From Patulibacter minatonensis DSM 18081 (GTDB lineage Bacteria; Actinomycetota; Thermoleophilia; Solirubrobacterales; Solirubrobacteraceae), in the NCBI RefSeq assembly GCF_000519325.1, contig NZ_KI912613.1, forward strand, positions 4,996,171-5,060,170: a stretch of DNA of 64,000 bases, given 5' to 3'. The notes under the pieces were generated by a model. That model was not told the origin of the DNA and searched no databases. It saw nothing but the letters and a program-made list of their open reading frames with translations. The position numbers were made by a program, and so were the translations under genes. Below, one piece after another: positions 29,061 to 51,899 of the stretch (its first letter is position 1; the number at the start of each line of letters is the position of its first letter).

Positions 29061-29066
29061 GGGGCG

Positions 29067-35442: not shown

Positions 35443-36350
35443 GCGGCCACCAGCCCTTCGCGCTGGACCTGGACCCATCGTTCGCCGACCTGGCACGCGG
35501 CGGCGGTCATGATGTCGAGGTTGCCGGCGTACGGCGGGAGGAAGTCGCCCGCGCCCTCGACCTGGAGGAGGACGATCACGACCGTCCGCTCGCCCCACGG
35601 CGTCCACTGGCGGTCGATCACCGGCTCGACCTTGAGCCGGTACCCGGGCACGTAGCGGGAGACCTGCTCGACCATCCGGTCCACGGAGGCACGGAGGGCC
35701 TCCTCGTCGATCGCCGGATCCTCCGGGACCGCGAAGAGGGTGTTGCCCATCAGGATCGGCGGGTCGGCGGGGTTCAGGACCATGATCGCCTTGCCCGCCG
35801 CGGCGCCACCGACCTGCTGCAGCGCGCCCGACGTCGTCCGGGTGAACTCGTCGATGTTCTGCCGCGTGCCGGGCCCGGCCGAGAGGCTGGCGATGGTCGA
35901 CACCATCTCCGCGTACTTCAGCGGCGCCACGCGGTCCAGCGCGTGGACGATCGGGATCGTCGCCTGTCCGCCGCAGGTGATGAGGTTGACGTTCGTCCCG
36001 GAGAGGTGCTCGTCGAGGTTCACCGCCGGGACCACCAGCGGGCCGATGTGCGCGGGCGTCAGGTCGACCGCGAAGATGCCGGCCTGCTCGAGGCGCGGGG
36101 CGTGGGAGCGGTGCGCGCCGGCGGAGGTCGCGTCGAAGACGACCTTCACGTCGGCCTCCAGCACGCCGTCGAGCCCGTCGGAGGAGACCGGCACGCCGAG
36201 GTCCTTCGCACGGGCGATGCCCTCCGACGCGGGATCGATGCCGGCGAAGCACGCGACCTCCATGGTCTCGCTGCCGCGGAGCTTCATCAGCAGGTCGGTG
36301 CCGATGTTGCCGGTGCCGATGATCGCGACCCTCGTCGCTCCGGTGGTCAT
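35439..36350 (-). CDS. Acetaldehyde dehydrogenase (acylating)
   Basis: 303 aa, DmpF/BphJ/MhpF type. It converts the aldehyde from the aldolase to acyl-CoA with NAD+ and Co[15 protein letters not shown] (Rossmann), [14 protein letters not shown], catalytic Cys in [13 protein letters not shown] (about residue 132), [19 protein letters not shown] and [16 protein letters not shown] at 36350 overlaps the hydratase stop. Together with the aldolase it forms the classic terminal pair of meta-cleavage pathways. Confidence 0.96.
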
Positions 36351-37168
36351 CGCGTCGTCCCGACCGTGGCCGTGACCGTGCCCACCGCGCCGGAGAACCG
36401 CGCCTCGTAGGCGCCGGGCGCGGCCGGGACCGCCGCGGTGAACGACCCGGCGAGGATCGGCTGCCCGACCGGCAGCGCCTCGCCGAAGCGGCCGACGGCC
36501 TCGGCGAGCCACGCCACCGCCTTGGCGGGGTGACCGAGGACCGCCTCGCCGGTGGCCCGCCCGACCTCGTCGCCGTCGTGCGTCATCACGACCTCGATCT
36601 CGCGGAGGTCGCCGACCGCGTCGAGCGGGACCGCGGCGCCGAGCACCGCGCCGAAGCACGACGCGTTGTCGGCGATCGTGTCCGGCAGCGTGATCCGCCA
36701 GTCGACGACGCGCGAGTCGATCACCTCGAAGACGGGGACGATCTCCGCCGTCGCGGCCAGCACCTGCTCGACGGTGAGTCCCGGTCCGCGCAGTTCCTCT
36801 CCGAGGACGAAGGCCAGCTCGGGCTCCAGGCGCGGGGCGACCATCCGCTGTGCGGCCGGGTCGAACGTCGCCCCGTCGGCGAACAGGTGCGAGTCGAGCA
36901 CCACGCCGAAGTCGGGTTCGTCGACACCCAGCTGGCGCTGCATCGCGAGGCTCGTCAGGCCGATCTTGCGTCCGGCCACCGTCCGTCCCGCCGCGGCGTG
37001 CCCGGCGACGAGGCGCTGCTGCACGCGGTAGGCGTCGTCGACGTCGAGCCCTCCCGGGCGCTCGGTGAGGGGCTCGACGGCGGTCCCCGACTCGAAGGCC
37101 TCCAGGAGTTCGCGCGCGAGGGCGTCGAGCTCGGCGGAGGACCGAGGACGGTGGTCAGTGGTCGACAT
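36347..37168 (-). CDS. 2-oxopent-4-enoate (2-hydroxypentadienoate) hydratase
   Basis: 273 aa, DmpE/MhpD family. It hydrates 2-hydroxypenta-2,4-dienoate to 4-hydroxy-2-oxovalerate, the substrate of the next enzyme. Motifs: [44 protein letters not shown] (metal Glu), [12 protein letters not shown]. First gene of the leftward operon, divergent from the IclR gene across about 100 bp. The length and the single-domain form match the family. Confidence 0.94.
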
Positions 37169-37269: not shown

Positions 37270-38052
37270 ATGCTGTTGACGGTGATGAACGTCGGGCGCG
37301 TCCTCGACGCCTACGACGAGGACCATCCGGAGCGCGGGGTCGCCGAGATGGCGGACGTCCTGGGCGTCGGGACGTCGAAGGCCCACGCCCTGATGACCTC
37401 GATGGCGGAGATCGGCCTGCTCCGCCGCGTGCCGGGCGGGCGCTACCGGATCGGCTGGCGGGCGCTCGAGCTCGTCCGCCTGATCACCGAGTCGACGCCC
37501 TTCCGGCCGGTCGCCCAGCGCGTCGCGGAGACGATCGCCCGGCGCAGCGGCGAGGTCGTGCACGTCGGCACCCTGGACGGCGGGCGGGTCGTCTACGTCG
37601 ACCGCTTCGTCGGCTCGCGCGGGGCCCAGATCCCCGTGTCCTCCGTCGGTTCCTCCCTGCCCGCGCACTGCACGGGTGTCGGCAAGGTGCTGCTCGCGCA
37701 CCAGGACGCCGGCATCGTCGACGTGATCCTCGACGACCAGGGGCTGGAGCCGATGACCGCCAACACGATCACCACGCGGGACCGGCTCTACGCGGAGCTC
37801 CACCGCGTGCGGGCCGACGGGGTCGCCTACGACCGCGAGGAGGTCCAGCCCGGCCTGTCGTGCGTCGCCGCACCGATCTTCGACGACGACGGCCGGGCCG
37901 TCGCCGCCCTCTCGATCTCGGTGCCCACGGAGCGCTTCGCCCGGGCCGAGACGGCACTGACCAGCACCGTTCGTCGTGCGGCGCGCACGATCTCCGAGCG
38001 CCTGACGGTCCCCGCCTCCGCAGAGGAACTCGAACGCGCCACGTCGTCCTGA
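37270..38052 (+). CDS. IclR-family transcription regulator of the aromatic locus
   Basis: 260 aa. N-terminal winged helix (VLDAYDEDHPERGVAEMADVLGVGTSKAHALMTSMAEIGLLRRV, about 11-54) and C-terminal IclR effector domain (GEVVHVGTLDGGRVVYVDR ... PAHCTGVGKVLLAH ... GVAYDREEVQPGLSCVAAPIFDDDGRAVAALSIS). Such regulators commonly sense aromatic acids. It sits between the two halves of the degradation pathway, which it most likely controls. A TAGCCT -10 box (37256-37261) ends 8 nt before the ATG and no ribosome site is present, so the mRNA is probably leaderless. Confidence 0.92.
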   Translation: MLLTVMNVGRVLDAYDEDHPERGVAEMADVLGVGTSKAHALMTSMAEIGLLRRVPGGRYRIGWRALELVRLITESTPFRPVAQRVAETIARRSGEVVHVGTLDGGRVVYVDRFVGSRGAQIPVSSVGSSLPAHCTGVGKVLLAHQDAGIVDVILDDQGLEPMTANTITTRDRLYAELHRVRADGVAYDREEVQPGLSCVAAPIFDDDGRAVAALSISVPTERFARAETALTSTVRRAARTISERLTVPASAEELERATSS

Positions 38053-38064: not shown

Positions 38065-38067
38065 GGG

Positions 38068-38097: not shown

Positions 38098-38103
38098 TGG
38101 GTC

Positions 38104-38160
38104 ATGCCCATCGCACACCGGGACGGCACGTCCGTCCGCTCGACCGCCGCCGGCGCATGA
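38104..38160 (+). CDS. Leader mini-ORF, 18 aa, overlapping the Rieske alpha start (ATGA)
   Basis: ATG at 38104 sits where a transcript from the TTGACG/TACAGC promoter would begin. The frame (MPIAHRDGTSVRSTAAGA) ends in TGA overlapping the ATG of the dioxygenase gene, which lacks any ribosome site of its own (CGACCGCCGCCGGCGC precedes it). This is the best supported of four such leaders here. Confidence 0.55.
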   Translation: MPIAHRDGTSVRSTAAGA

Positions 38161-39503
38161 GCTCCGCCCGCCCCGAGGTCCTCGTCGAGGACCAGAAGGA
38201 CGACGGCACGTTCCGCGTCCACCGCTCCGCCTTCCTCTCGGACGAGATCCACGCCGCGGAGATGCAGCGCGTCTTCGAGCGCTCCTGGCTGTTCATCGGC
38301 CACGAGTCCGAGCTCGCCGAGAAGGGCGAGTACCGCCGGCGCAAGATCGCGGGACGCTCGATCATCTTCGTCCGCAGCGACGACGGCGAGATCCGCGCCT
38401 TCCACAACACGTGCCCGCACCGCGGCGCGATCGTCTGCCGCCAGGACAAGGGCGTCGCGAAGGCGTTCCAGTGCTTCTACCACGCGTGGACGTTCAACTC
38501 CCGGGGCCAGCTGAAGGGCATCCCGGGCAAGGACGGCTACGACGGCGGCACCTTCGATGCGGCCGAGCGCTCGCTCAAGCCGGTGGCCCGGTTCGAGAGC
38601 TACCGCGGGTTCCACTTCGTGAGCTTCCAGGAGGACATCCAGCCGCTGTACGACTACCTGGCCGGGGCGCGGGAGTACCTGGACCTCATCGTCGACCAGT
38701 CCCCGTCGGGGCAGCTGCGCGTCGCGGACGGCTCGCACCAGTACTCGATCCGGGCGAACTGGAAGCTCCTGGCCGAGAACAGCATCGACGGCTACCACGG
38801 CATGCCGACCCACCAGACGTACTTCGAGTACGTCGCCGAGGCCGGCGGCCTCGGTGGGAAGGGCGGCAAGAAGCTCCACGGCCGCGGCCACTCGCTCGGC
38901 AACGGCCACGCGTGCGTCGAGTACTGGGCCCCCTGGGGCCGGCCGGTCGCCCGCTGGGTGCCGATCATGGGCGAGGAGGCCAAGCCGGCGATCGAGGCCG
39001 CGAAGGCCGAGATCGTCGAGCGGCAGGGCGCCGAGAAGGCCGACCGCATCTGCGAGTGGAACCGCAACATGCTGATCTACCCGAACCTCGTGATCAACGA
39101 CATCATGTCGACGACGATCCGCACGTTCTGGCCGGTCAGCAAGGATTACATGGAGATCGACGCCTGGGCGATCGCCCCCGTCGAGGAGGGCGAGGGCGAG
39201 GCCCTGCAGACGCGCCTGCACAACTTCCTCGAGTTCCTCGGGCCGGGCGGCTTCGCCACGCCCGACGACGTCGAGGCCCTCGAGTCGTGCCAGATCGGCT
39301 TCGAGGCCGGCGGCGAGCAGTGGAACGACGTCTCGCGCGGGATGAAGCGCGAGGCCCTCGTCGACGACGAGCTCCAGATGCGCGCGTTCTGGCGCCAGTG
39401 GGTCGCCCAGATCGAGGGCTACGAGATCGACGACTGGGGCGACGCCCCGCTGCCGGACGAGCTCGTGACCCCCGACGCCGAGCGCACCTGGGCGATCACG
39501 TGA
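38157..39503 (+). CDS. Rieske aromatic-ring dioxygenase, alpha (catalytic) subunit
   Basis: 448 aa. It adds O2 to an aromatic ring to give a cis-dihydrodiol. Rieske [2Fe-2S] ligands Cys86-x-His88 and Cys106-x2-His109; mononuclear iron motif ENSIDGYHGMPTH with Asp211, His214 and His219. A large alpha subunit with a partner beta subunit (40279) indicates an alpha3beta3 enzyme. Order alpha-dehydrogenase-beta-decarboxylase-hydrolase-extradiol enzyme resembles p-cumate (cmt) clusters more than benzoate or biphenyl ones. No Rieske ferredoxin is in the operon; the ferredoxin and reductase at 43621-45215 may serve it. Confidence 0.94.
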   Translation: MSSARPEVLVEDQKDDGTFRVHRSAFLSDEIHAAEMQRVFERSWLFIGHESELAEKGEYRRRKIAGRSIIFVRSDDGEIRAFHNTCPHRGAIVCRQDKGVAKAFQCFYHAWTFNSRGQLKGIPGKDGYDGGTFDAAERSLKPVARFESYRGFHFVSFQEDIQPLYDYLAGAREYLDLIVDQSPSGQLRVADGSHQYSIRANWKLLAENSIDGYHGMPTHQTYFEYVAEAGGLGGKGGKKLHGRGHSLGNGHACVEYWAPWGRPVARWVPIMGEEAKPAIEAAKAEIVERQGAEKADRICEWNRNMLIYPNLVINDIMSTTIRTFWPVSKDYMEIDAWAIAPVEEGEGEALQTRLHNFLEFLGPGGFATPDDVEALESCQIGFEAGGEQWNDVSRGMKREALVDDELQMRAFWRQWVAQIEGYEIDDWGDAPLPDELVTPDAERTWAIT

Positions 39504-40261
39504 CGGGAACGCCCCCGGTCGCGGTCGTGACCGGCGCTGCCGCCGGGATCGGTCGCGCCATCGTCCGCCGGCTGCGCGCCGACGGGTGGCTCGTCGTCCT
39601 CGCGGACCTCGAGGCGAACGTCGCCCGCGCAGCCGCGCAGGCCGAGGGCGACGACGTCCTGTCCTTCGGCGGCGACCTGAGCGACGCCGACATCGCCCGC
39701 GCGCTGATCGCGGACACGACGGCCGAGCACGGCCGCATCGACCTCCTGGTCAACAACGCGGGCGGCGGCGTCCTCCGGCCCTTCATGGACCACGACGACG
39801 CGTCGATCGCGGCCACGATCTCGCGCAACCTGCTGACGACGATCCACTGCATCCAGGCCGCGATGCCCGCGCTCCTGGAGTCGCGGGGCTCGGTCGTCTC
39901 GATCGGTGGCGACTCGGTGCGCAACGGCCTGTCGATGCACGCGGTCTACAACGCCGCGAAGGGCGGGGTGCACGGCCTGACGACCGGCCTGGCCCGCGAG
40001 TTCGCGCCCCGTGGCGTGCGGTTCAACGTCGTCGCCCCCTCGATCGTGCTGACCGACCAGGTCGTGCAGATGGAGCGGGACCGCGACACGCTCACGCCGC
40101 CCGTCCTGCACATGCTCGACGAGGCCGTCGACGTCATCCCCATGGGTCGCCCCGCGACCGTCGAGGAGGTCGCGAACGTCGTCGCGTTCCTCGGTTCCCC
40201 GCAGGCGTCGTTCGTGACCGGCCAGGTCGTGAGCGTCAACGGCGGCAGCACGATGCTCTGA
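39500..40261 (+). CDS. SDR-family cis-dihydrodiol dehydrogenase
   Basis: 253 aa from a GTG that overlaps the alpha-subunit stop (GTGA). Classical short-chain dehydrogenase: VVTGAAAGIGRAIV (TGxxxGxG, residues 9-22), NNAGGG (85-90), catalytic Ser139 in GGDS, Tyr150 and Lys154 in YNAAK, and the C-terminal PMGRPATVEEVANVVAFL ... VTGQVVSVNGGSTM. By position it re-aromatises the dihydrodiol to a catechol. The substrate is inferred from the operon. Confidence 0.92.
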   Translation: MTGTPPVAVVTGAAAGIGRAIVRRLRADGWLVVLADLEANVARAAAQAEGDDVLSFGGDLSDADIARALIADTTAEHGRIDLLVNNAGGGVLRPFMDHDDASIAATISRNLLTTIHCIQAAMPALLESRGSVVSIGGDSVRNGLSMHAVYNAAKGGVHGLTTGLAREFAPRGVRFNVVAPSIVLTDQVVQMERDRDTLTPPVLHMLDEAVDVIPMGRPATVEEVANVVAFLGSPQASFVTGQVVSVNGGSTML

Positions 40262-40278
40262 GGCTCCGGAGGAGCGAC

Positions 40279-40794
40279 ATGACCGACACCACCATGCCCC
40301 AGACCACCCACGACCGCCTGATGCTTCGCCTCGAGGTCGAGGAGTTCCTGATCGAGGAGGCAGCGATCCTCGACGAGTGGCGCCTCGACGACTGGATCGC
40401 CCTCTTCACCGACGACGCCACCTACGTGGTGCCGTCGACGGACCTCGCCGGCGGCGACCCGGCGCGCGACCTGACGCTGATCGACGACGACCGGCTCCGC
40501 CTGGAGTGGCGCGTGAAGCGGCTGAAGAGCCGGCACGCCCACCGCGAGTACCCGTGGTCCCGCACCCGCCGACTCGTGACGAACGTCCGCGTGCTGCGTG
40601 CGGAGGACGACGAGCTCGACATCACGGCGTCGATCCTCGTCCACCGCTTCCGCCACGGGCGCCAGGACCACTTCGTCGCGCGGTACCTCATGACGCTCGT
40701 GCGCACCGAGGACGGCCTCCGCATCCGTCGCCGCCGGGCGGAGATCGACCAGGAGCGGCTGAGCCCCAACGGTGCGCTCAGCATGATCCTGTGA
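40279..40794 (+). CDS. Rieske aromatic-ring dioxygenase, beta subunit
   Basis: 171 aa, the usual length for the small subunit, with the NTF2-like fold pattern: EVEEFLIEEAAILDEWRLDDWIALFTDDATYVVP at the N terminus and RRLVTNVRVLRAEDDELDITASILVHRFRHG, then RRRRAEIDQERL. It is structural and stabilises the alpha trimer. GGAGGAG precedes the ATG. Separation from the alpha gene by the dehydrogenase gene is unusual but occurs in carboxylate-type dioxygenase clusters. Confidence 0.93.
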   Translation: MTDTTMPQTTHDRLMLRLEVEEFLIEEAAILDEWRLDDWIALFTDDATYVVPSTDLAGGDPARDLTLIDDDRLRLEWRVKRLKSRHAHREYPWSRTRRLVTNVRVLRAEDDELDITASILVHRFRHGRQDHFVARYLMTLVRTEDGLRIRRRRAEIDQERLSPNGALSMIL

Positions 40795-41495
40795 GCGCCG
40801 TCCCGCCCTCCCCCACGACCGCGACCCTCGTCGCGGCCTGCCGGGTGCTCGAGCACCAGGGACTGACCACGGCGTTCGGCCACGTGACGGCCCGGGTCGA
40901 CGGCGCCGACGACGTCCTGATCTCCGGCAGCGCCGGACCGGGGCTCGTCACCGGACCCGAGGACCTCGTCCTGATCGGTCCGGACGGCGACGTCCGCGGC
41001 GGCGACGCGACGCTCCTGCCCGGCGAGACCGCGCTCCACCTCGGCATCCTCCGGGCGCGGCCCGACGTCGGGAGCGTCGTCCGCTTCCATGGTCCGAGCA
41101 CCCTGGCCTGGGGCACCCTCGGGCGCGCCCTGCCGGCGACCACGGGCATGGGCCTGTTCCTCGGGCACCAGGTCCCCGTCTTCGACACGAGCACGACGAT
41201 CACGGCGGCCGAGCACGCCGACCGCATGGCGTCGGCGCTCGGGCCGCGCCCGGCGCTCCTGCTGCGCGGGTTCGGCTCCGTCACCGTCGGCCGGACGATC
41301 GAGGAGGCCGTGGCCCGCGCCTGGCTGCTCGAGCGCTCCGCCGCCGCCCTGCTCGCGGCGCACACCGTGTCCACCCCCCTTCCCTATCCGGCGACCGCGG
41401 CCGAGCCCTTCGCCTCGGACGACGGTCCCGCACCACGCCAGCTGGCGCGCGTGTGGCACTACCTGCAAGCGATCTCGAAAGGACAGAAACGATGA
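40791..41495 (+). CDS. Class II aldolase/adducin-family protein, probable ring-cleavage-product or dihydroxy-acid decarboxylase
   Basis: 234 aa from a GTG overlapping the beta-subunit stop. Class II aldolase fold: GLTTAFGHVTARVDGADDVLISGS (N-terminal), LPGETALHLGILRARPDVGSVVRFHGPS with the active Glu, and LLLRGFGSVTVG. True fuculose-phosphate aldolases have H-x-H and a later N-H-G; here only one His (RFHG) survives in the first and the second reads R-G-F-G, so aldol chemistry is doubtful. Relatives CmtD (cumate) and PhtC (phthalate) are decarboxylases in the same pathway position, which I take as the likely role. Confidence 0.82.
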   Translation: MSAVPPSPTTATLVAACRVLEHQGLTTAFGHVTARVDGADDVLISGSAGPGLVTGPEDLVLIGPDGDVRGGDATLLPGETALHLGILRARPDVGSVVRFHGPSTLAWGTLGRALPATTGMGLFLGHQVPVFDTSTTITAAEHADRMASALGPRPALLLRGFGSVTVGRTIEEAVARAWLLERSAAALLAAHTVSTPLPYPATAAEPFASDDGPAPRQLARVWHYLQAISKGQKR

Positions 41496-42373
41496 CCTCG
41501 ATCTGGCTCGACCTCATGGGCGCCGGCGTCCAGGAGCGCTTCTACGACGCCGGCGGCGTCCGCACCCGCGTCCTGGAGTGCGGTGAGGGGCCGGTGCTCC
41601 TCCTGCTCCACGGCACCGGCGGCCACGCGGAGACGTACTGCCGCAACCTCGGCCCGCTGTCGGAGCACTTCCGCGTCGTCGCCCCCGACCTGATCGGGCA
41701 CGGCTTCACCGACCGCCCCGACGTCGACTACACCCTCGACACGTTCGCAGGGCACATCGTCGACCTGCTCGACGCGCTGGGCGCCGACACGGCGATCCTC
41801 TCCGGCGAGTCCCTCGGCGCGATGGTCTCCGCCTGGGTCGGCATCACGCACCCCGAGCGGGTGGAACGCGCGGTGCTGAACACCGGCATCCTCGCCCGCC
41901 CCGACGCCCCCGGACAGGCGCAGCTCGACGACCTCGAGCAGCGCACGATGGCGATGGCGAGGGACGGCGTGACGCTCGAGGGCGTCCGGCACCGCATGAA
42001 CTGGCTCGTCTCCTCCCCCGACCGCATGACGGACGAGATGATCCAGGTGCGCCACCGCGTCTACACGCAGGACGGCATGCTCTCCAGCGTCGCGACGATC
42101 ATGTCCAGCGTCATCGGGATGATCCGCGGGACGAACGACGGCACCGACTACTACGCCCCGGGCACGATGGCCCGGCTCGAGGTCCCCACGCTCGTCCTCT
42201 GGACGGTCGACAACCCGGGGCAGAGCACGGAGCTCGCCCGCGAGACCGCGAAGGAGCTCCCGGACGGGAGGTTCGAGGTGCTCGAGGACTGCGCCCACTG
42301 GCCGCAGTTCGAGCAGCCCGACGCGTTCAACGCGATGCATCTCGAGTTCCTCGTCGCCGGGAAGGTGGCCTGA
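41492..42373 (+). CDS. Alpha/beta hydrolase, probable meta-cleavage-product hydrolase
   Basis: 293 aa. LLLLHGTGGHAETYCRNL (oxyanion loop), nucleophile Ser107 in LSGESLGAMV, Asp in LWTVDNPG and His in EDCAHWPQFEQPD. This is the pattern of MhpC/BphD/CmtE C-C bond hydrolases, which cut the ring-opened product to 2-hydroxypenta-2,4-dienoate (feeding the hydratase at 36347) and an acid. The start overlaps the previous stop (ATGA) and has AAAGGA upstream. Confidence 0.9.
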   Translation: MTSIWLDLMGAGVQERFYDAGGVRTRVLECGEGPVLLLLHGTGGHAETYCRNLGPLSEHFRVVAPDLIGHGFTDRPDVDYTLDTFAGHIVDLLDALGADTAILSGESLGAMVSAWVGITHPERVERAVLNTGILARPDAPGQAQLDDLEQRTMAMARDGVTLEGVRHRMNWLVSSPDRMTDEMIQVRHRVYTQDGMLSSVATIMSSVIGMIRGTNDGTDYYAPGTMARLEVPTLVLWTVDNPGQSTELARETAKELPDGRFEVLEDCAHWPQFEQPDAFNAMHLEFLVAGKVA

Positions 42374-42374
42374 C

Positions 42375-43457
42375 ATGGCCGAGTTCCTGGGCCTCGGGGT
42401 CACGCACTACCCGCTCCTGGCGGGGACCGACGAGCACATGGCCGGCCTGCTGCGCTGGACGCTCGGCGATCCGGACATCCCGGAGGAGCTGAAGGACCCG
42501 GCCGCCTGGTCGCCGTCGATGCGGGCGGAGTGGGAGCGCGGCACGGAGGCCGCGGCCGCGCACCGCGCCGAGCTGCGCGAGCACATGGCGCGATGCCGCA
42601 AGGCGCTCGACGACTTCGAGCCGGACGTCCTCATCGTCTGGGGCGACGACCAGTACGAGAACTTCCGCGAGGAGGTCGTGCCGCCGTTCTGCGTGCTGGC
42701 CTACGAAGATCTCGACGTCCCCGCCTTCGAGGTCATGAACGAGCGCGGCAGCCCCAACGCCTGGGGCCTGCCGGACGACTTCGAGATCGTGCTCCACGGC
42801 GATCCCGAGACCGCGCGGTCGATGACCAACAGCCTGATCGACGACGGCTTCGACATGGCCTACTCGTACAAGAAGCGCGCCGGTGCGCACTTCCCGCACG
42901 CGATCCTGAACACCCAGCTGTTCCTCGACTACGACAACGCGGGCGCCGAGCTGCCCTACCCGATCGTCCCGATCACGGTCAACTGCTACGGCCAGCACGC
43001 CATCGCCCGCAAGGGCGGGCTCGCACGATTCGCGGACATCCACGACGAGCGCCTGGACCCGGTCGGCCCGACCCCGAAGCGCTGCATGGACCTCGGGGCC
43101 TCCGTCGTCCGCGCGCTCGCCGGCACCGACAAGCGGGTCGCACTGGTCGCGTCCTCGAGCTGGTCGCACGCGTTCCTCGTCGACAAGACCTGGCACCTCT
43201 GGCCGGACACGCCCGCCGACCGCCGGCTCTACGAGGCGTTCGTCGCCGGCGACCTCGACACCTGGCGCGCGGTGACGGGCGCCGAGGTCGTCGACGCGGG
43301 CCAGCACGAGATGCTCAACTGGTTCTGCCTCGTCGGGGCGATGGAGGAGCTCGGCATGACGCCCGACTGGTCGACGTTCGTCGAGACGGACGTCTTCAAC
43401 TCGAACAAGTGCTTCGCCGTGTTCAGCCAGGACGGCGCGGCGGCTGCCGCCGACTGA
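42375..43457 (+). CDS. LigB-type (class III) extradiol ring-cleavage dioxygenase
   Basis: 360 aa. Non-haem Fe(II) enzyme that opens a catechol next to the diol. GLGVTHYPLL with a metal His (His11) at the N terminus, VLIVWGDDQYENF (about 85-97), GAHFPHAILN with His172 and His175, and VALVASSSWSHAFL. These place it in the LigB superfamily rather than the vicinal-oxygen-chelate class. It starts 1 nt after the hydrolase stop. Last gene of the operon, followed by two hairpins. Exact substrate (2,3-dihydroxy-cumate-like is my guess) needs biochemistry. Confidence 0.9.
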   Translation: MAEFLGLGVTHYPLLAGTDEHMAGLLRWTLGDPDIPEELKDPAAWSPSMRAEWERGTEAAAAHRAELREHMARCRKALDDFEPDVLIVWGDDQYENFREEVVPPFCVLAYEDLDVPAFEVMNERGSPNAWGLPDDFEIVLHGDPETARSMTNSLIDDGFDMAYSYKKRAGAHFPHAILNTQLFLDYDNAGAELPYPIVPITVNCYGQHAIARKGGLARFADIHDERLDPVGPTPKRCMDLGASVVRALAGTDKRVALVASSSWSHAFLVDKTWHLWPDTPADRRLYEAFVAGDLDTWRAVTGAEVVDAGQHEMLNWFCLVGAMEELGMTPDWSTFVETDVFNSNKCFAVFSQDGAAAAAD

Positions 43458-43620: not shown

Positions 43621-43941
43621 CTAGCCCTGCTCCTCGGGGACCGTGACCTTCAGGCCGTCCTCGGCGTCGGTCACGACGAGCTGGCACGAGAGCCGCGAGT
43701 TCTCCTGCACGGTGTCCAGGAACTCGAGGAGCTCCCACTCCTCCTCCGACGCCTTGCCGTAGTGCGCGGCCCACTCGCCCTCGACGTACACGTGGCAGGT
43801 GGCGCAGGAGCAGCTGCCGCCGCACTCCGCCTCGATGCCGGGCAGGTTGTTGGCGACCGAGCCGTCCATGACGCTGAGCCCGGACTTGACCTCGATGGTC
43901 TGCTCCGAGCCGTCGGGGAGGACGTAGGTGACGCTTGGCAA
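43621..43941 (-). CDS. [2Fe-2S] ferredoxin of the putidaredoxin/terpredoxin type
   Basis: 106 aa, matching putidaredoxin and terpredoxin in length when read from the TTG at 43941, which has AAGGA about 10 nt upstream; no ATG or GTG fits. Cluster ligands follow the C-x5-C-x2-C pattern in ECGGSCSCATCHVYV, with the fourth Cys in SRLSCQLVV. An additional Cys occupies the middle of the loop (GGSCS). It transfers electrons from the reductase at 43989 to the P450s at 45256 and 46821, and possibly to the Rieske dioxygenase. Last gene of the P450-reductase-ferredoxin operon. Confidence 0.92.
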   Translation of the reverse strand: MPSVTYVLPDGSEQTIEVKSGLSVMDGSVANNLPGIEAECGGSCSCATCHVYVEGEWAAHYGKASEEEWELLEFLDTVQENSRLSCQLVVTDAEDGLKVTVPEEQG

Positions 43942-43988
43942 CGTGGTGATTCCTTCGTGAGTGGGAGGGGTGGGAGTCGCGGCGCCCG

Positions 43989-45215
43989 TCAGGCGACGAC
44001 GTCCTTGAGTCCGACGGCCTCGTCGGCCAGACGGGTGACGTCGACGCGCTGTCGGGTCCGAATGTACTTCTTGCCGGCCATGAACTCCTTCGGGGCGTTC
44101 GCGGACTCGACCGCCGCGATGACGTCCCCGTCGAGGTGGAAGACCGTGAACCGTCCCGTGGTCGGATCGCCACGGACGACGGCCGCGTGACCCGGGCGGA
44201 GCAGCCCGGCCATCTTCAGCTTCAGGTCGAACTGGTCCGACCAGAACCACGGCACGTCGGCCGCCGGCACGTCCTTGCCGACGATGACGTGCGCGGCCTG
44301 CTTGGCCTGCTCCATCGCGCTCGGGATGCTCTCCATGCGGACGAGCTCCTCGACGTTCCCGACCGGACGCCGGGTCACGTCGCCGATCGCCAGCACGTGC
44401 GGGTCGCTCGTGCGCGTGGCGGCGTCGACGACGATGCCGCCGTCGCACGTCAGGCCGGCAGCGCTGGCCAGCTCGTCTCGGGGGATCGCCCCGACGCCGA
44501 CGAGCGCGAGGTCGCAGGGGATCTCGCGGCCGTCGCCGAGCACGACCGCGCGCACGTGGCCGTCGTCGTCGCCCGCGAACCCGGTGACGTCGGCCGACGT
44601 CAGGACCTCGGTGCCCTGGGCGACGTGGTGCCCGGTCAGGATCTCCGACAGCTCCGGGCTCGCGACCCGAGCGAGCACGCGGTCCTCGCGCTCGAGGACC
44701 GTCACCTGCTGGCCGACGGAGCGCGCGACCGCCGCGACCTCGAGCCCGACGTAGCCGGCACCGACGATCACGAGCCGCTTGTCGGGGTGCACCGCGTCCT
44801 TCAGGACGCGGGCGTCCGCCAGCGTGCGCAGGACGACGACGCCGTCGAGGTCCCCGCCCGGCACCGGCAGGCGCCGCGGCTCGGCCCCGGTGGCGAGCAC
44901 GAGGGTCGAGTACGCGAGCTCGGTGTCGTCGCCCAGGCGCACGGTGCGCGCCTCAGGGTCGATCGCGACGACGTCCTCCGAGAGGCGCAGCGTGATGCCC
45001 TGCTCCTCGTAGAACTCGAGCGGCCGCAGCGGATCCTCCAGCTCGTCGGCGTGGAACTTCTTCGAGAGCGGAGGACGGTGGTACGGCGCATCGGGCTCGG
45101 ACCCGATCAGCACGACCGGGCCCTCGTAGCCGAGCTGGCGCAGGGTCCCGACGAGGGTGCCCCCGCCGTGCCCGGCGCCGACGATGACGACGGGCGCCTC
45201 GTCCGCGGCGCTCAC
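43989..45215 (-). CDS. NAD(P)H-ferredoxin reductase (putidaredoxin-reductase type, FAD)
   Basis: 408 aa from GTG at 45215. FAD-binding VVIVGAGHGGGTLVGTLRQLGYEGPVVLIGSE (GxGxxG), PYHRPPLSKKF, NAD-binding LVIVGAGYVGLEVAAVARSVGQQVTVLERE, and the late HVLAIGDVTR with the C-terminal DFKLK-like QFDLKLKMAGLL. This is the reductase that reduces the neighbouring ferredoxin. It lies between P450 and ferredoxin genes, 40 bp after the P450 stop, as in terp and cam systems. Confidence 0.94.
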   Translation of the reverse strand: MSAADEAPVVIVGAGHGGGTLVGTLRQLGYEGPVVLIGSEPDAPYHRPPLSKKFHADELEDPLRPLEFYEEQGITLRLSEDVVAIDPEARTVRLGDDTELAYSTLVLATGAEPRRLPVPGGDLDGVVVLRTLADARVLKDAVHPDKRLVIVGAGYVGLEVAAVARSVGQQVTVLEREDRVLARVASPELSEILTGHHVAQGTEVLTSADVTGFAGDDDGHVRAVVLGDGREIPCDLALVGVGAIPRDELASAAGLTCDGGIVVDAATRTSDPHVLAIGDVTRRPVGNVEELVRMESIPSAMEQAKQAAHVIVGKDVPAADVPWFWSDQFDLKLKMAGLLRPGHAAVVRGDPTTGRFTVFHLDGDVIAAVESANAPKEFMAGKKYIRTRQRVDVTRLADEAVGLKDVVA

Positions 45216-45255
45216 CGGGCCACCGCCGGCGTCGCGTCGGTCCCGGCGCGCGCGC

Positions 45256-46581
45256 TCATCGCAGCTCGAGCTTCATCGGCAGGTTCTTCACGCCGCCGAC
45301 GAAGTTCGTCTGCACGACCTTGCGCTCGCCCGTGAACTCGCCGCCGACGATGAGCGGGATGAGCTCCTCGTACATCACGCGAAGCTCGAGCTTGGCGACG
45401 TGCTGGCCGATGCACATGTGCGGGCCGTAGCCGAAGGCGATGTGCTTGTTCGGGCGGCGCGTCGAGTCGAACGTGTCGGGATCGGAGATGACCTCCTCGT
45501 CGCGGCTGCCCGACTGGAAGAGCGTCAGGAGGCGATCGCCCTTCTTGATCTTCTGGCCGCGCAGCTCGTAGTCCTGCTCGGCCCGGCGGGTGAACTGCTT
45601 GACCGGCGCGGCCCAGCGGATGGCCTCGTTGACGAAGTCCGCGATGCCCTTCGGGTCCTCCTGCAGCGCCTTGAGCTGGTCGGGGTGCTTGATGAGCTGC
45701 TCGATGCCCGTGGCGAGCGTCGCCGACGTCGTGTCGTGGCCGGCGGTCGCGATGGCGATGAAGTAGCCGTACGCGAACGTCTTGGGCATGTACTCGCCGT
45801 CGTCGTACTTCGCGGTCGCGACGATCGTGGCGAGGTCGTCCTTCGGGTTCGCGCGGCGGTCCTCGACGATCTGGTCGAAGTAGGCGTAGAAGTCCTGGAC
45901 CGTCGCCATGAGCTGCTGGGCCTGGGCCTCGGGCGAGAGCTCGATCTCCTCGCGCTTGGAGTCCGGGTCGGCGGTGCCGAAGAAGTCCTGGGTCAGCGCC
46001 ATCATCCGCGGCTCGTCCTCCTCCGGGACGCCGCAGAGCGACATCACGACGTGGAGCGGGAAGTACATCGACCAGTCCTTCATGAGGTCGAGCTCGCCGG
46101 CGGCCGCCTTCTCCTTGAGGTCCTCGATGGAATCCTTGGCGAGCTCGCGGATCCGGTCCTCCCACTTCTTGATGTTGGCGGGGCGGAACCAGTCCAGGGC
46201 GACGTTCTTGACGACCGAGTGCTCCGGCGGATCCATGTACGGGAGCACGTCCATCACGCGGTGCGACCCGCCGGTGATGCTGAGGGTGAACTGCTCGCCG
46301 GCCTGGTTGGTGAAGAGCGGGTTGTGGCTGCCCTTCTCCTCGCCGCCGCCGTTGGAGAAGATCGCCGGCTGGCGCTCGACCTCCATGATGTCCGCGTGCT
46401 TCGTCAGGAGCCACATGGGGTCCCAGCCCTCGACGTGCGCCTGTCCGAGCGGCATGTTGTCCCGCAGCCACTTGTAGGCCTCGAAGAGCTTCTTCTCGTC
46501 GCGGTGCCCCTCGGGGAGGACGATCTGCTTGGCGATGTCGTCGGGGACGATCGCGTTGTCGGTCTCGGTGGCGGTGCTCAT
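45256..46581 (-). CDS. Cytochrome P450, CYP108-like, copy 1
   Basis: 441 aa soluble class-I P450. I-helix ATAGHDTTS (oxygen-activating Thr near 284), ExxR at Glu319-Arg322 in [11 protein letters not shown], and haem ligand Cys390 in [12 protein letters not shown]. Many segments (MAHIEGYDPMW-like start, [38 protein letters not shown]) recall P450terp (CYP108), which hydroxylates alpha-terpineol; from memory, not a search. AGGAG precedes the ATG. Heads the operon with its reductase and ferredoxin. Almost the same protein lies just upstream (46821). Confidence 0.95.
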
Positions 46582-46820
46582 GGAAATCTCCTGGATGGGG
46601 CATGCGCCGCCGTGCTCGGGAGCGGTGAGGCTCTCCCGCGGCAGCGCGCTCGCTCTGCGGGAGCAGTCTCACGAGCGCCCGGGAGCCCGCCGCCTTCGCA
46701 CCGGGCGATCTTCCTCTACCGGTGGGGGTACAGACGCGATCCGGGGGCCGGTCGCGGACCGGTAGCGGGGCAGGAACACCCCGCTCAGGACCGGTCTTCG
46801 CGCGGGCGCTCCCGCTCGGC

Positions 46821-48146
46821 TCAGCGCAGCTCGAGCCTGACCGGCAGGTTCTTCACGCCGCCGACGAAGTTCGTCTGCGTGACCTTGCGCTCGCCGGTGA
46901 CCTCGCCGCTGACGATGTGCGGCAGGAGCTCCTCGAACATCACGCGCAGCTCGAGCTTCGCGACGTGCTGCCCGATGCACATGTGCGGGCCGTAGCCGAA
47001 GGCGATGTGCTTGTTCGGCTTGCGCGTGGAGTCGAAGGTGTCGTAGTCCTCGAACACCTCCGTGTCGCGGTTGGCGGCCTGGTAGAGCGTCAGGAGGCGG
47101 TCGCCCTTCTTGATCTTCTGGCCGCGGAGCTCGTAGTCCTCGAGCGCCTGCCGGGTGAACTGCTTGACCGGGGAGGTCCAGCGGATCGCCTCGTTGACGA
47201 AGTTCGGGATCCCGGACGGGTCGTCCTGCAGCGCCTTCAGCTGATCGGGGTGCTCGAGCAGCTGCTGGATGCCGGTGGTGAGCGTGGCGGACGTGGTGTC
47301 GTGCCCGGCGGTCGCGACGGCGACGAGGTAGCCGTAGGCGATCTCCTTCGGCAGGAGCTCGCCGTCGTCGCCGCGCGCCACCGAGACGATCGTGGCGAGG
47401 TCCTCGGTCGGGTTGGCGCGGCGGTCCTCGACGATCGTGTCGAAGTAGGCGTAGAAGTCGTTGATCGTCGCCACCCACTGCTTCGCCGCCGCCTCGGGCG
47501 ACACGTCGACGTCGTCGCGCTTCTTGTCGGGGTCCGCCGTGCCGAAGAAGTCCTGCGTCAGCGCCATCATCCGCGGCTCGTCCTCCTCGGGCACGCCGCA
47601 GAGGGACATGATCACGTGGAGCGGATAGTGGATCGCCCAGTCGGCGATGAGGTCCAGCTCGCCGGCCGCGGCCTTCACCTTGAGGTCGGCGACCGACTCC
47701 CGGGCGAGCTCACGGACTCGGTCCTCCCACTGCTTGATGTTCGCGGGACGGAACCAGTCCAGCGCGATGTTCTTGACGAACGTGTGCTCCGGAGGGTCGA
47801 GGTAGGTGACGGTCTCCAGGACGCGGAAGCTGCCACCCGTGAGCTGCTTCGTGAACTCCTCGCCGGCCTGGTTGACGACGATCGGGTTGTGCGAGCCCTT
47901 GTTCTCGCCCCCGCCGTTCGTGAAGATCTGCGGCTGGCGCTCGACCTCCTGGATGTCGGCGTGCTTGACGACGAGCCACAGCGGGTCGTAGCCCTCGACG
48001 TGGGCCTGCGCGAGCGGGGCGTTGGCGATCAGCCAGTCGTACGCGGCGTAGAGCTTGTCCTCGTCGCGGTGGCCCTCCGGCAGGACGATCTGCCGGGCGA
48101 TGTCGTCGGGGACGATCGCGTTGCCGGTCTCGGTGGGGGTGCTCAT
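46821..48146 (-). CDS. Cytochrome P450, CYP108-like, copy 2
   Basis: 441 aa, colinear with copy 1 without gaps: I-helix [20 protein letters not shown] (ExxR), haem Cys390 in [24 protein letters not shown] at the end. Differences cluster in the substrate-recognition regions (for example about residues 85-115), so the two probably act on different or successive substrates. CAGGAG ribosome site before the ATG. It has its own 239-bp upstream region with an inverted repeat, so it is separately regulated from copy 1. Confidence 0.95.
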
Positions 48147-48199: not shown

Positions 48200-48225
48200 C
48201 ACGATCCGTCGGGTGTCGGATCGTG
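48200..48225. promoter_or_regulatory. Inverted repeat upstream of P450 copy 2
   Basis: CACGATCCG-N8-CGGATCGTG, perfect 9-bp arms, 54-79 bp before the P450 ATG. A strong operator candidate; nothing equivalent is seen upstream of P450 copy 1. Confidence 0.65.
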
Positions 48226-48385: not shown

Positions 48386-49363
48386 TCACCGGGTCGTCAG
48401 CACGACCTTGCCGCGATGGCCGCCGTCCTCGAGCAGCCGATGGGCGTCGGCCGCCCGGTCGAGCGGGAGCACCGTCCCCACGACCGGCCGCCAGTCCGGC
48501 ATCCGGTCGATCAGGCCGAGCATCGCCGCGAAGTCGCGATGGCTGCCCATCGTGGTCCCCCGGATGTCGAACTGGCCGAAGTAGAACGGCCGGATCGCGA
48601 TCTCGGCCTGCTCCGCGGCGTTGGCGCCGAAGCTCACCACCCGTCCGCCGGGGCGCAGGGTGCTGAGCGCGTCCGCCCACTGCCCGACGGGGTCGATCAC
48701 GAGGTCGAAGCCCTCGCCGTCGTTGGCCTCGCGCGCCGCCTGCGGCCAGCCCGCATCGCGGTAGGAGACCCCCGCCGTCGCGCCGAGCGCGACCGCGCCG
48801 TCGATGCCGCCCTGCGACGAGGACGTGACCGTGATCCGCGCACCGGCGCGGTGCGCGAAGGCGACGAGGAAGGTCGCGACCCCGCCGCCCGCGCCGAGGA
48901 TCAGCACGCGCTCGCCGGGGCGCAGGCCGCCACGGCCGAACAGCGCGCGGTGGGCCGTGACGCCGGCCAGCGGCAGGGCCGCGGCCTCCTCCCACGAGAG
49001 CTGCGCGGGCTTCGGCAGGACGTTCTCCTCGGGCACCGCGACGAGCTCCGCGTACGTGCCGTCGACCCGGTCGCCCAGGATCTCGAAGCGGGGTCCGGGG
49101 GCGGCGTCGCGGTCGCCCCACCAGAGCGAGGGGACGATCACGACGTCCTCCCCCGTGTCGCGCCGGACGCCCGCGCCGTCGGCCCCGGGCACGAGCGGGA
49201 GCGGCGCGGGGTACTGCCCGCGACGGACGAGGCAGTCGTGCCAGTTCAGCGCGGCCGCCCGGAGCTCCACGAGCACCCATCCGGGAGGGACGACGGGGTC
49301 CGGCGCCTCCTCCGGCCGGAGCGTGTCCAGTCCGCCGTACTCGTGCAGTCGCACTGCGTGCAT
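48386..49363 (-). CDS. Zinc-independent quinone-oxidoreductase-like MDR protein
   Basis: 325 aa MDR-family NADPH oxidoreductase. N-terminal GroES-like lobe ([29 protein letters not shown]), Rossmann [31 protein letters not shown], and [17 protein letters not shown] near the end. The catalytic zinc Cys of alcohol dehydrogenases is absent and no structural zinc cluster is present, so it is of the quinone reductase/enoyl reductase kind. GAGAGGA precedes the ATG at 49363. A GTGAACGATCCTTCAC palindrome lies 56 bp upstream, linking it to the candidate regulon. Confidence 0.87.
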
Positions 49364-49419
49364 CGGGGTCCTCTCGGTCGCGGTCGGCGGCCAGGCCGCC
49401 CGGGTCCGGACGACCCTAC

Positions 49420-49572: not shown

Positions 49573-49605
49573 ACTCCGAGAGCGCGGCCAGGTATGGTTG
49601 GTGCT

Positions 49606-50775
49606 GTGAGCGCACGCACACGAGTCCAGTCGTCGTCCCCGGACATCGGAACCGCCGCCCACGTCGCGGCGCTCGACGGCCGCGTGCGGGCCCTCCTCGG
49701 CGCCCAGCCCACCGCCGACGGCGCCCCCGACCTCGCCCTCGCCGTGGCCCGCGAGCAACTCGAGGACCGGCTCAGCCGCGACGCCGCGACGTGGTCGCGG
49801 GACACCGTGGTCGAGGCGTGCGACCTCCTCCGGTCCGTGGACGAGGTCCAGCGGATCCGCGAGGAGCGCGCGGTGCGCGAGCGCCTGACGGAGCTCGCCC
49901 GCATCCAGCGGGCGGTCGACGCGCTGTCCGGCCTGAGCACGGACGAGGCCGTCCGCCGGGCGCCCATCGTGCTGTGCGAGAGCTGCGACGTCGGCCGCGG
50001 GATGATCTCCGCCGTCGTCGGCTCGATCTGGGTGCCGCGCCACCTGCACATCACGCCGGGCCACGAGGAGCACGCCGACAGTTTCCAGGAGTACATCTCG
50101 AGCGCCCGGATCCCGCTCGCGCACACGCTGCTCGAGGCCGAGCTCGTCCGGCGCCGGGTCGCGGGGATCGTCGACGACACGGCCGGCGACGAGCGCACGT
50201 TCAAGCCGATCGTCGAGGCCGGCCAGTCGGCGGCCTACGTCGTCGCCCCGATCATGTCGCGCGGCCGCGCGATCGGCTTCGTCCACGCCGACCGCCACGA
50301 CGGCGACACGCGGGTCACCGACCACGACCGCGACCGGCTCGCCGCGTTCGCGTCCTGCTTCGGGCTGCTCCACGAGCAGACCCTGCTCCGGGACCGCCTG
50401 GCGGCCCAGCGGCTGCGGTCCCGCGCCGCGTTCGCCGACGCCGAGTCGTCCCTGATCCGGCTGCAGGAGGACGCCGTCCGCCTCGACGACGCCCTGCGCT
50501 CGGCGGCCGAGGTCGCCGACGGGCCGACGCGCCAGGACGCCGGCGGGCCGACCGCCCAGCGCGTCCAGGACCTCCTCACCAGCCGCGAGCGCGAGGTCCT
50601 CGGGCTGATGACCGAGGGCGCCACCAACACGCGCATCGCGGAGCAGCTGGTGATCGCCGAGGGCACCGTCAAGTCCCACGTCAAGAACATCCTGCGGAAG
50701 CTGCGGGCGCCGACCCGGTCGGCGGCGGTGGCCCGCTACGCGCACCTCACGCGCCGCTCCAACCAGGTCGCATGA
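49606..50775 (+). CDS. GAF-domain LuxR-type transcription regulator, first gene of the second pair
   Basis: 389 aa from GTG at 49606. The TATGGT -10 box ends 7 nt before this GTG, which would be at the transcript 5' end; an ATG at 49594 overlaps the -10 box itself and is rejected. GAF-like domain about 105-265 (LCESCDVGRGMISAVVGSIWVPRHLHI ... AAYVVAPIMSRGRAIGFVHADR) and C-terminal LuxR HTH (LTSREREVLGLMTEGATN, TVKSHVKNILRKL). The sequence parallels the first gene of the pair at 2357-3532. The stop overlaps the next gene (ATGA). Regulated by the palindromes just upstream. Confidence 0.88.
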   Translation: MSARTRVQSSSPDIGTAAHVAALDGRVRALLGAQPTADGAPDLALAVAREQLEDRLSRDAATWSRDTVVEACDLLRSVDEVQRIREERAVRERLTELARIQRAVDALSGLSTDEAVRRAPIVLCESCDVGRGMISAVVGSIWVPRHLHITPGHEEHADSFQEYISSARIPLAHTLLEAELVRRRVAGIVDDTAGDERTFKPIVEAGQSAAYVVAPIMSRGRAIGFVHADRHDGDTRVTDHDRDRLAAFASCFGLLHEQTLLRDRLAAQRLRSRAAFADAESSLIRLQEDAVRLDDALRSAAEVADGPTRQDAGGPTAQRVQDLLTSREREVLGLMTEGATNTRIAEQLVIAEGTVKSHVKNILRKLRAPTRSAAVARYAHLTRRSNQVA

Positions 50776-51899
50776 GCCCGGAGGTCCTGGGCGGCTCCCG
50801 GTCCCCCCGCGCGCGCCGGACGGGCGACGTCGCCCGGCACGCCGACACCATCGTCCGGCGCCTGCACGCGATGGGCATCGACCCGGGCGCCGCGGGCATC
50901 GGGGCCGACGACCTCGAGCGGGCCTCGACCACGCTCGACCGCGGCGCGGAGCTCGTGACCGGGCTGCTCACGGGCGCACCGGCGCGGCGCCGGTCGGAGC
51001 TCGCCGCCGTCCTGGTCGAGCTCCACGACGCCCGCCGCAGCATCCGCGCCCTGCGGATGACCGGGCGCGGCCGCCCCGCGGAGGCCCTGCAGCAGAGCGT
51101 CACCCGCCTGCGGAACGTCAGCTCGACGACCGGGCTGCTGGACCGCGTCTGCGGCGAGGCCGCGACGTGCACCGGGCTCTCGCGCGTGGCGCTGTCGACG
51201 GTGGCCGAGACCGACTGGAGCGTGTGCCGCATCCACGCGGAGCACGAGCCCGGCGCCCAACCGCCCCCCGAGCTCCTGGCGATGTCGCAGGACATGGCGG
51301 GGATCGAGCGCGAGGTCCTCCGCACCGGCGACGGCGTGGTCGTCCCCGCAGACGCGGACACCCCGATGCGGCAGGTGTTCGGGTCGTCCCACGTGGTCGT
51401 CCCCGTGCCCGTGTCGACCGGGGTCCTGGGCCTCCTCCACGGCGACCACCACCCGACGGACCGACCGGCGGACGAGGTCGACCGGGAGCTCCTCGCCGCG
51501 TTCGGCCGGGCCTTCGGCCAGATCTACGAGCGCACCGCGCTGCAGGAGCGGCTCGACACGCAGCGGCGCACCCTGATCGCCGCGCTGCAGGCGGAGACCG
51601 AGGCGGCCGAGGAGCTCGGCGCCGCGGACTTCAGCTTCGCGGTCCCGGGTCACGAACCCGACGCCGACGCAGTGCCCGCGCCCCGCGGGAGCAACGCGGC
51701 CATCGACGCGCTGCTCACGCCGCGCGAGCGCGAGGTCCTCGAGCTGATCCTCGCCGGCGCGTCCAACGGCGTCATCGCCGAGCGGCTCGTGATCACGACC
51801 GGCACGGTCAAGTCGCACGTCAAGCGCGTCCTGCGCAAGATCGGCGCGGCGAACCGCTCCGAGGCGATCTCGCGATACTTCGAGCTCGACGGCGCCTGA
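50772..51899 (+). CDS. GAF-like LuxR-type transcription regulator, second gene of the second pair
   Basis: 375 aa. GAF-like region about 120-260 (LLDRVCGEAATCTGLSRVALSTVAETDWSV ... SSHVVVPVPVSTGVLGLLHGDHH), a helical linker, and a C-terminal LuxR HTH (LTPREREVLELILAGASN, TVKSHVKRVLRKIGAANRSEAISRYF). The ATG overlaps the stop of the first regulator. HTH details match the second gene of the 1236-3532 pair. Target genes are unknown; the next gene, 28 bp downstream, may be cotranscribed. Confidence 0.87.
   Translation: MSPEVLGGSRSPRARRTGDVARHADTIVRRLHAMGIDPGAAGIGADDLERASTTLDRGAELVTGLLTGAPARRRSELAAVLVELHDARRSIRALRMTGRGRPAEALQQSVTRLRNVSSTTGLLDRVCGEAATCTGLSRVALSTVAETDWSVCRIHAEHEPGAQPPPELLAMSQDMAGIEREVLRTGDGVVVPADADTPMRQVFGSSHVVVPVPVSTGVLGLLHGDHHPTDRPADEVDRELLAAFGRAFGQIYERTALQERLDTQRRTLIAALQAETEAAEELGAADFSFAVPGHEPDADAVPAPRGSNAAIDALLTPREREVLELILAGASNGVIAERLVITTGTVKSHVKRVLRKIGAANRSEAISRYFELDGA

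Follow-up and report, generated by a model that had tools for sequence, protein, structure and literature searches.

Tandem CYP108-type P450s convergent with a p-cumate-type ring-cleavage operon suggest a P450-initiated route for p-cymene-like compounds in Patulibacter minatonensis

Introduction

P450terp (CYP108A1), which is accompanied by terpredoxin, oxidizes alpha-terpineol. P450tol from Rhodococcus coprophilus TC-2 (PDB 7V40–7V46), known as a biocatalyst, hydroxylates toluenes at the benzylic carbon, and its pocket residues have been listed (PMC11219674). CYP108N12 and CYP108N14 of Rhodococcus globerulus, which are supported by the ferredoxin cymredoxin, hydroxylate the methyl group of p-cymene, and CYP108N12 initiates p-cymene catabolism (PMC11889516, PMC11279926). 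In Rhodococcus sp. P14, the gene for CYP108J1, which oxidizes polycyclic aromatic hydrocarbons (PAHs), is clustered with those for tandem LuxR regulators, a 2Fe-2S ferredoxin, a ferredoxin reductase, an alcohol dehydrogenase (ADH), and an aldehyde dehydrogenase (ALDH) (PMC7037279). The cmt pathway of Pseudomonas putida F1 and Burkholderia xenovorans LB400 has a non-P450 entry enzyme, the two-component monooxygenase CymA, and a TetR-type regulator, CymR; its operon contains a ferredoxin and a reductase.

Here, we describe a locus in Patulibacter minatonensis DSM 18081 that resembles each of these systems in part. The window is the whole stretch of 64,000 nucleotides that we analyzed (Table 1). 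We treat the gene families, the duplication, and the conserved neighborhoods elsewhere as established, and we infer the substrate, the reaction order, the electron transfer, and the regulation.

Table 1. Features of the P450 unit and its surroundings in the window
Feature	Coordinates	Strand
Aldehyde dehydrogenase; one of three candidates for module ALDH	4938..6413	-
Aryl-alcohol dehydrogenase (benzyl alcohol dehydrogenase-like); genome's best match to module ADH	29067..30149	-
Acyl-CoA synthetase; best match MbcS (branched-chain type), below the cut-off of the MbcS model	32738..34429	-
4-Hydroxy-2-oxovalerate aldolase	34408..35442	-
Acylating acetaldehyde dehydrogenase	35439..36359	-
2-Hydroxypenta-2,4-dienoate hydratase	36347..37132	-
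IclR regulator	37270..38052	+
Rieske dioxygenase alpha subunit (benzoate/cumate type)	38139..39503	+
SDR, cis-diol dehydrogenase (CmtB role)	39560..40261	+
Ring-hydroxylating dioxygenase beta subunit	40258..40794	+
Class II aldolase-fold decarboxylase (CmtD role)	40791..41495	+
Meta-cleavage product hydrolase (CmtE role)	41492..42373	+
LigB-type extradiol dioxygenase (CmtC role)	42375..43457	+
Putidaredoxin/terpredoxin-type [2Fe-2S] ferredoxin, TTG start	43621..43941	-
FAD-dependent ferredoxin reductase, 408 aa, GTG start	43989..45215	-
P450A, CYP108-type, 441 aa; pocket diverged (L89, V112, L224)	45256..46581	-
P450B, CYP108-type, 441 aa; sister of P450A	46821..48146	-
Candidate operator, inverted repeat CACGATCCG-N8-CGGATCGTG, 53–79 nt upstream of P450B; weak evidence	48200..48225	.
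Quinone oxidoreductase-like (PIG3-like), zinc-binding-dehydrogenase family	48386..49414	-
GAF-LuxR regulator 1	49594..50775	+
LuxR-type regulator 2, tandem with GAF-LuxR regulator 1	50772..51899	+

Results

The P450 pair and its family

The P450–reductase–ferredoxin unit (43621–48146, minus strand) is convergent with the p-cumate-type ring-cleavage operon, and 163 nt separate its end from the extradiol dioxygenase gene; the original prediction that it faces the aromatic locus was correct. The PIG3-like protein encoded beside the unit recurs near such P450 modules.

As had been noted, the two P450s align without gaps and share long identical stretches: 335 residues are identical (76%), with longest runs of 28 and 27 aa. 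P450s with more than 40% full-length identity to a family member are placed in the same family. Both exceed this value against P450terp (46–48% over 421 columns), and the alignment bears out their predicted CYP108-like character. They are closer to P450tol, which has the same length and is the nearest among the solved enzymes; its identity of 63–65% leaves the P450 fold in no doubt. The heme Cys loop, the ExxR motif (position 319), and the I-helix acid-alcohol pair AGHDTT are present in both. Given that P450tol acts on the methyl group of toluene, hydroxylation at a benzylic methyl is a better fit than oxidation of terpineol; of the earlier hint at monoterpenol oxidation, the CYP108 membership stands and the terpineol-type reaction is the less likely one. 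P450A and P450B form a sister group in the tree (SH-aLRT 99), and, judged from their sequences, they arose by duplication within the present lineage.

Pocket differences between P450A and P450B

The predicted difference in the substrate-recognition sites (SRSs) holds literally, in that SRS1, SRS3, and SRS5 carry substitutions, but not in the sense that these parts differ significantly more than the rest of the protein: with approximate SRS limits, 28.6% of positions differ within the SRSs and 22.4% elsewhere (Fisher p=0.21), so that enrichment is not significant. This result, together with the 76% identity, would suit two redundant dosage copies acting on one substrate. However, the two enzymes differ at four of the 11 positions that contact toluene in P450tol, of which P450B keeps nine (T112 and T114 changed) and P450A eight (L89, V112, and L224 changed). 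Of 71 relatives, only P450A has a Leu (L224) in place of W223, and its L89 and V112 are rare among them, whereas P450B matches the common states; moreover, their separate upstream gaps have no motif in common. We therefore regard dosage copies as quite unlikely. Since the P450B pocket is conserved and the P450A Leu is unique among the 71 relatives, the two P450s are probably not redundant; P450A, with a pocket remodeled relative to the common one of P450B, probably takes a related substrate of a different shape.

Upstream regions

Each P450 gene is preceded by a gap of 239–240 nt, and almost no sequence is common to the two gaps. The expectation that each P450 has its own control region was thus borne out as far as separate upstream sequence is concerned, but not for a sigma70-like promoter, since neither such promoters in these gaps nor terminators gave a signal above chance; a 9+9 bp palindrome occurs upstream of P450B only, with none of that length upstream of P450A. 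Regulation of the CYP108J1 type through a CAACTTTC operator upstream of the P450 was rejected, the motif being absent from both strands of the window. The window shares with the CYP108J1 cluster the tandem LuxR regulators, the 2Fe-2S ferredoxin, the P450, the reductase, the ADH, and the ALDH; it differs in that half-site and in the position of its ADH and ALDH genes, which are not adjacent to the P450s.

Ring-cleavage operons and redox partners

Family models located the cmt roles of P. putida and LB400 (PMC5224996), namely Rieske alpha and beta subunits (CmtAb and CmtAc), diol dehydrogenase (CmtB), extradiol dioxygenase (CmtC), decarboxylase (CmtD), hydrolase (CmtE), hydratase, aldolase, and acetaldehyde dehydrogenase, within 34408–43457, all except the ferredoxin and the reductase. 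The regulator is of the IclR type, in contrast to CymR. The Rieske alpha subunit reached no substrate-specific model cut-off, and a search of 200 Burkholderiaceae for a proteobacterial CmtD counterpart was uninformative (no match at E<=1e-25). As to whether the operon is specific for p-cumate or serves another 4-alkylbenzoate, the MbcS-like ligase gives no more than a hint of isobutyrate.

The reductase gene lies 40 nt past P450A and 47 nt ahead of the ferredoxin gene. As predicted, the ferredoxin starts at TTG, a start well supported because no in-frame ATG or GTG lies between the reductase stop and this codon and because homologs align from residue 1; an AAGGA Shine-Dalgarno-like stretch lies 9 nt upstream. 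The protein is a homolog of putidaredoxin and terpredoxin with the [2Fe-2S] ligand pattern C-x5-C-x2-C-...-C (Cys 40, 46, 49, and 86). The extra Cys noted in its cluster loop (Cys at 40, 44, 46, and 49) is real, but C44 is no peculiarity: it occurs in 51 of 52 homologs with at least 45% identity and in the solved 3HUI and FdVI, and is a clade feature.

The description of this pair as dedicated to the P450s is doubtful, because the Rieske operon (37270–43457) has neither a CmtAd-type ferredoxin nor a CmtAa-type reductase and the P450-type pair is the only one nearby. It may also supply the Rieske dioxygenase, a refinement compatible with our main reading. Putidaredoxin-type ferredoxins are known partners of class IIA Rieske oxygenases. 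The p-cumate dioxygenase of P. putida has both components and more distant relatives (L099, L030, and L090) have a Rieske ferredoxin and a second reductase, while the close P450-bearing clusters of R. ruber and P. terrae show the P450-type pair only. On the other hand, the pair is encoded within the P450 operon, its relatives accompany P450s with no Rieske genes in most loci, the R. pseudokoreensis cluster has a separate 2Fe-2S reductase, and the host genome has a distant Rieske-ferredoxin candidate (3125099). Sharing is thus possible but doubtful.

Dehydrogenases and neighborhoods in other genomes

The ADH at 29067 matched benzyl alcohol dehydrogenase 1F8F (E=2.5e-86). Both dehydrogenase genes lie outside the P450 operon, and the genome offers alternatives for both, among them a further complete module elsewhere that brings an ADH and an ALDH of its own. 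Three genes in the genome are about equally suitable as the module ALDH, and the one at 4938 lies 38 kb away; its link to the P450 unit is weak.

Among 58 actinobacterial loci encoding a P450 at >=55% identity, a ferredoxin was found nearby in 43, a reductase in 42, an ALDH in 38, and an ADH in 37, such that close homologs of the window's ADH and ALDH accompany the unit in 37–38 loci. These neighborhoods lend independent support to the originally predicted chain of P450, ADH, ALDH, and Rieske steps. Six genomes have a related Rieske/extradiol cluster no more than about 16 kb from the P450 (rough expectation, 0.25–1), and R. ruber MSA14 pmega_1 carries P450-FdR-Fdx-ALDH-ADH-RHOa-RHOb-SDR-AMP-ligase...extradiol dioxygenase-hydrolase in about 15 kb.

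The linkage is not obligatory, because most CYP108/P450tol-type modules do not adjoin a cumate cluster (extradiol dioxygenase within 10 kb of the P450, 5/58). The P450s might instead oxidize toluene, xylene, limonene/terpineol, or a PAH and the ring-cleavage operon serve another aromatic acid, the proximity being incidental or that of a shared catabolic island. Besides this pair, the host genome has three CYP108-like P450s that are intact and one that is degraded, and the substrate of P450terp is terpineol. Since CYP108J1 oxidizes PAHs (PMC7037279), the substrate is not readable from the P450 family. Against this alternative stand the co-location repeated in the six other genomes and on the R. 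ruber megaplasmid, and the pocket of P450B, which is identical to that of the Pseudonocardia terrae P450 adjoining a cumate-type cluster whose extradiol dioxygenase is 80% identical to the window's. We consider such separate roles for the P450s and the operon fairly unlikely.

No such P450 was found in 398 other sampled genomes of the host's class, and the module was probably acquired horizontally. Composition gave no case for recent transfer: the GC3 of the P450s (0.98) matches that of the neighbors, and their low GC is therefore amino-acid driven.

Discussion

It is reasonably probable, from gene content and arrangement, that the P450 unit starts the breakdown of p-cymene-like compounds and feeds the adjacent ring-cleavage operons. 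Electrons would pass from NADH through the FAD reductase and the [2Fe-2S] ferredoxin to the P450 in a three-component system, whose most likely substrate is p-cymene or a closely related alkyl-toluene, hydroxylated at the benzylic carbon of the ring methyl group. The benzyl-alcohol-dehydrogenase-like ADH and then the ALDH (4938 or another copy) would oxidize the alcohol to p-cumate, which derives from a plant terpene, or to a similar aryl carboxylate. Through the divergent operons (32738–43457), dihydroxylation of this acid would be followed by ring cleavage, decarboxylation, and hydrolysis to a short acid and 2-hydroxypentadienoate, the latter being converted to pyruvate and acetyl-CoA.

Such a route is distinct from the cym monooxygenase route, as originally predicted, but not new, since a P450-initiated p-cymene route has been published for R. 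globerulus CYP108N12 (PMC11889516, PMC11279926). That system, likened here by description only, has the same named P450 family and ferredoxin support; the present host, going by the class-wide search, is not closely related to Rhodococcus. In contrast to P450tol, known for its use as a biocatalyst, the P450 of the window comes in two copies that adjoin a ring-cleavage operon. An extended scheme, in which one putidaredoxin-type ferredoxin and one reductase drive both methyl hydroxylation by the P450s and ring dihydroxylation by the Rieske dioxygenase as a single chain while P450A is retuned to a second substrate, is unlikely as a whole.

The missing Rieske redox partners raise the question of electron-chain sharing between the oxygenases, and P450A and P450B provide a natural pair of sister enzymes with four differences among the known contact positions of the pocket. 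The locus would extend a P450-initiated p-cymene-type route, biochemically established in one Rhodococcus, to a class with no such P450 in its other sampled genomes.

The P450 pair and its ferredoxin

The original prediction placed two CYP108-like P450s, a ferredoxin reductase (FdR) and a ferredoxin (Fdx) correctly. P450A and P450B align without gaps, sharing 335 identical residues (76%; longest identical runs, 28 and 27 residues) and 82% DNA identity. The nearest solved enzyme, Rhodococcus coprophilus P450tol (7V40), shares 65% and 63% identity with them and hydroxylates toluenes at the benzylic carbon (PMC11219674); P450terp (48% and 46%) comes second. Alignment assigns both to CYP108 by the usual 40% identity rule.

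Features of the P450 unit and its neighbors
Feature	Position	Strand	Remarks
P450A	45256-46581	-	441 aa
P450B	46821-48146	-	441 aa
FdR	43989-45215	-	starts 40 nt after P450A
Fdx	43621-43941	-	starts 47 nt after the reductase
p-Cumate-type genes	34408-43457		IclR regulator, Rieske alpha and beta, SDR diol dehydrogenase, class II aldolase-type decarboxylase, meta-cleavage hydrolase, LigB-type extradiol dioxygenase
Divergent genes			hydratase, acetaldehyde dehydrogenase, aldolase, then acyl-CoA synthetase closest to MbcS
ADH	29067-30149	-	aryl-alcohol dehydrogenase
ALDH	4938-6413	-	aldehyde dehydrogenase

Each P450 has its own upstream gap of 239–240 nt; the gaps have no motif longer than 10 nt in common, and neither contained a sigma70-like promoter. 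A perfect 9+9 bp palindrome (48200-48225) upstream of P450B only is weak evidence because, when the window was shuffled 100 times, one or more sites with no more than three mismatches to it turned up in 29 of the shuffles.

The TTG start of Fdx is well supported because AAGGA lies 9 nt upstream, the stretch from the reductase stop to the TTG contains no in-frame ATG or GTG, and homologs align from residue 1; where their alignment reaches the start, homologs begin with ATG (46), GTG (3) or TTG (2). The predicted extra Cys (C44) is present but normal for the clade, as it is found in 51 of 52 homologs and in the solved ferredoxins 3HUI and FdVI.

Substrate pocket

That the substrate recognition sites (SRS) of the two P450s differ is true as a description but is not a statistical signal, because the differences are not significantly concentrated there (28.6% vs 22.4%, p=0.21, with approximate SRS limits). 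Among the 11 residues surrounding toluene in 7V41 (PMC11219674), P450B keeps nine and P450A eight, and the pair differ at four (89, 112, 114 and 224, window numbering). Of 71 core relatives, 51 carry W and 17 carry F at position 223 (P450tol numbering); L occurs there in P450A alone. The 11-residue pocket of P450B is identical to that of a Pseudonocardia terrae P450, which lies near an extradiol dioxygenase 80% identical to that of the window.

Linkage to ring cleavage

A decarboxylase acting after an extradiol enzyme is typical of 2,3-dioxygenation in which the carboxyl group is retained, as for p-cumate, as opposed to benzoate-type 1,2-dioxygenation. All p-cumate pathway roles (PMC5224996) are present at 34408-43457 save the ferredoxin and reductase.

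We compared 58 loci from other genomes, each with a P450 of at least 55% identity. Ferredoxin (43/58), reductase (42/58), ALDH (≥55%; 38/58) and ADH (≥45%; 37/58) genes lay near the P450, frequently in the order P450-FdR-Fdx-ADH-ALDH. The same cluster type with tandem LuxR regulators has been published for CYP108J1 (PMC7037279). On R. ruber MSA14 pmega_1, P450-FdR-Fdx-ALDH-ADH-RHOa-RHOb-SDR-AMP-ligase genes, followed by an amidohydrolase and a regulator and, after these, an extradiol dioxygenase and a hydrolase, span about 15 kb. A Rieske/extradiol cluster lies within about 16 kb of the P450 in R. ruber NBRC 15591, P. terrae, Protofrankia, Mycobacterium sp. AT1, Geodermatophilus and Nocardia alni; a rough Poisson expectation by chance for the 58 loci, which we estimated assuming one to two Rieske homologs per genome, is 0.25–1, so that the p value of six cases falls in the range 3e-7 to 6e-4. 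The proposed tie between P450s and ring cleavage thus gains support beyond that first offered. The linkage requires at least six changes on the P450 tree, and therefore was gained or lost repeatedly. A closely related cumate-type cluster on a Rhodococcus pseudokoreensis plasmid has, in place of the P450 system, an AlkB-type alkane monooxygenase and a separate 2Fe-2S reductase.

Redox partners and dehydrogenases

Fdx and FdR were predicted to be dedicated to the P450s. The pair may not be dedicated, because the Rieske operon contains neither a ferredoxin nor a reductase, and in the clusters of R. ruber and P. terrae the P450-type pair is likewise the only one. More distant clusters (Pseudonocardia sp. 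EC080619-01, N. alni and R. erythropolis X5) have a second reductase together with a Rieske ferredoxin.

ADH and ALDH had also been proposed to feed the pathway. ADH resembles benzyl alcohol dehydrogenase 1F8F and scores highest in the genome against the module ADH (55%). An equally close ADH, however, belongs to another complete ALDH-ADH-P450-FdR-Fdx module (about 4.116–4.122 Mb, in G000:C1:4110000-4126000), whose P450 is 48% identical to P450A. ALDH is among three candidate copies (64–66%) but is not singled out, and its position, next to MoeA and a LuxR pair, is 38 kb distant.

Tandem LuxR-type pairs occur at 1236-3403, near ALDH, and at 49594-51899, near the P450s; cyp108j1 of Rhodococcus P14 is also preceded by tandem LuxR genes. 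The block at 25177-30149 (HAD-acyltransferase, wax ester synthase/DGAT, alpha/beta hydrolase and aryl-ADH) possibly esterifies an alcohol intermediate; similar blocks adjoin CYP108-type P450s on a Mycobacterium paragordonae plasmid and in Mycolicibacter.

Duplication and origin

P450A and P450B group as sisters (SH-aLRT 99) in a tree of 88 P450s, and two more P450s from this genome join them (94 and 86). The genome has five intact CYP108-like P450s, P450A and others 76, 63, 59 and 48% identical to it; a sixth is present as fragments. The fragments (G000:C1:2606000-2624000) adjoin an FAD oxidoreductase (DAO) fused to a Rieske domain; the 59% paralog (G000:C1:4535000-4551000) adjoins an acyl-CoA dehydrogenase, an AMP-binding ligase and a tandem LuxR pair resembling that at 49594-51899.

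Among 60 relatives (genus, family and order), none had a P450 match at E≤1e-120 or an extradiol dioxygenase match at E≤1e-80, and no P450 match at E≤1e-150 occurred in the class's remaining 398 genomes. P450 GC3 is host-like. These results are most simply explained by horizontal gain and a later duplication; loss in other lineages is also possible.

Biological meaning

In R. globerulus, CYP108N12 starts the breakdown of p-cymene (PMC11889516, PMC11279926), and a P450 route to p-cumate was hence already established before this locus. By inference, the P450s of P. minatonensis would act on p-cymene-type substrates. The 43621-48146 unit with its neighbors is real and forms a coherent catabolic unit, of a type already known, and its points of most interest are the remodeled pocket of P450A and the absent Rieske redox partners.
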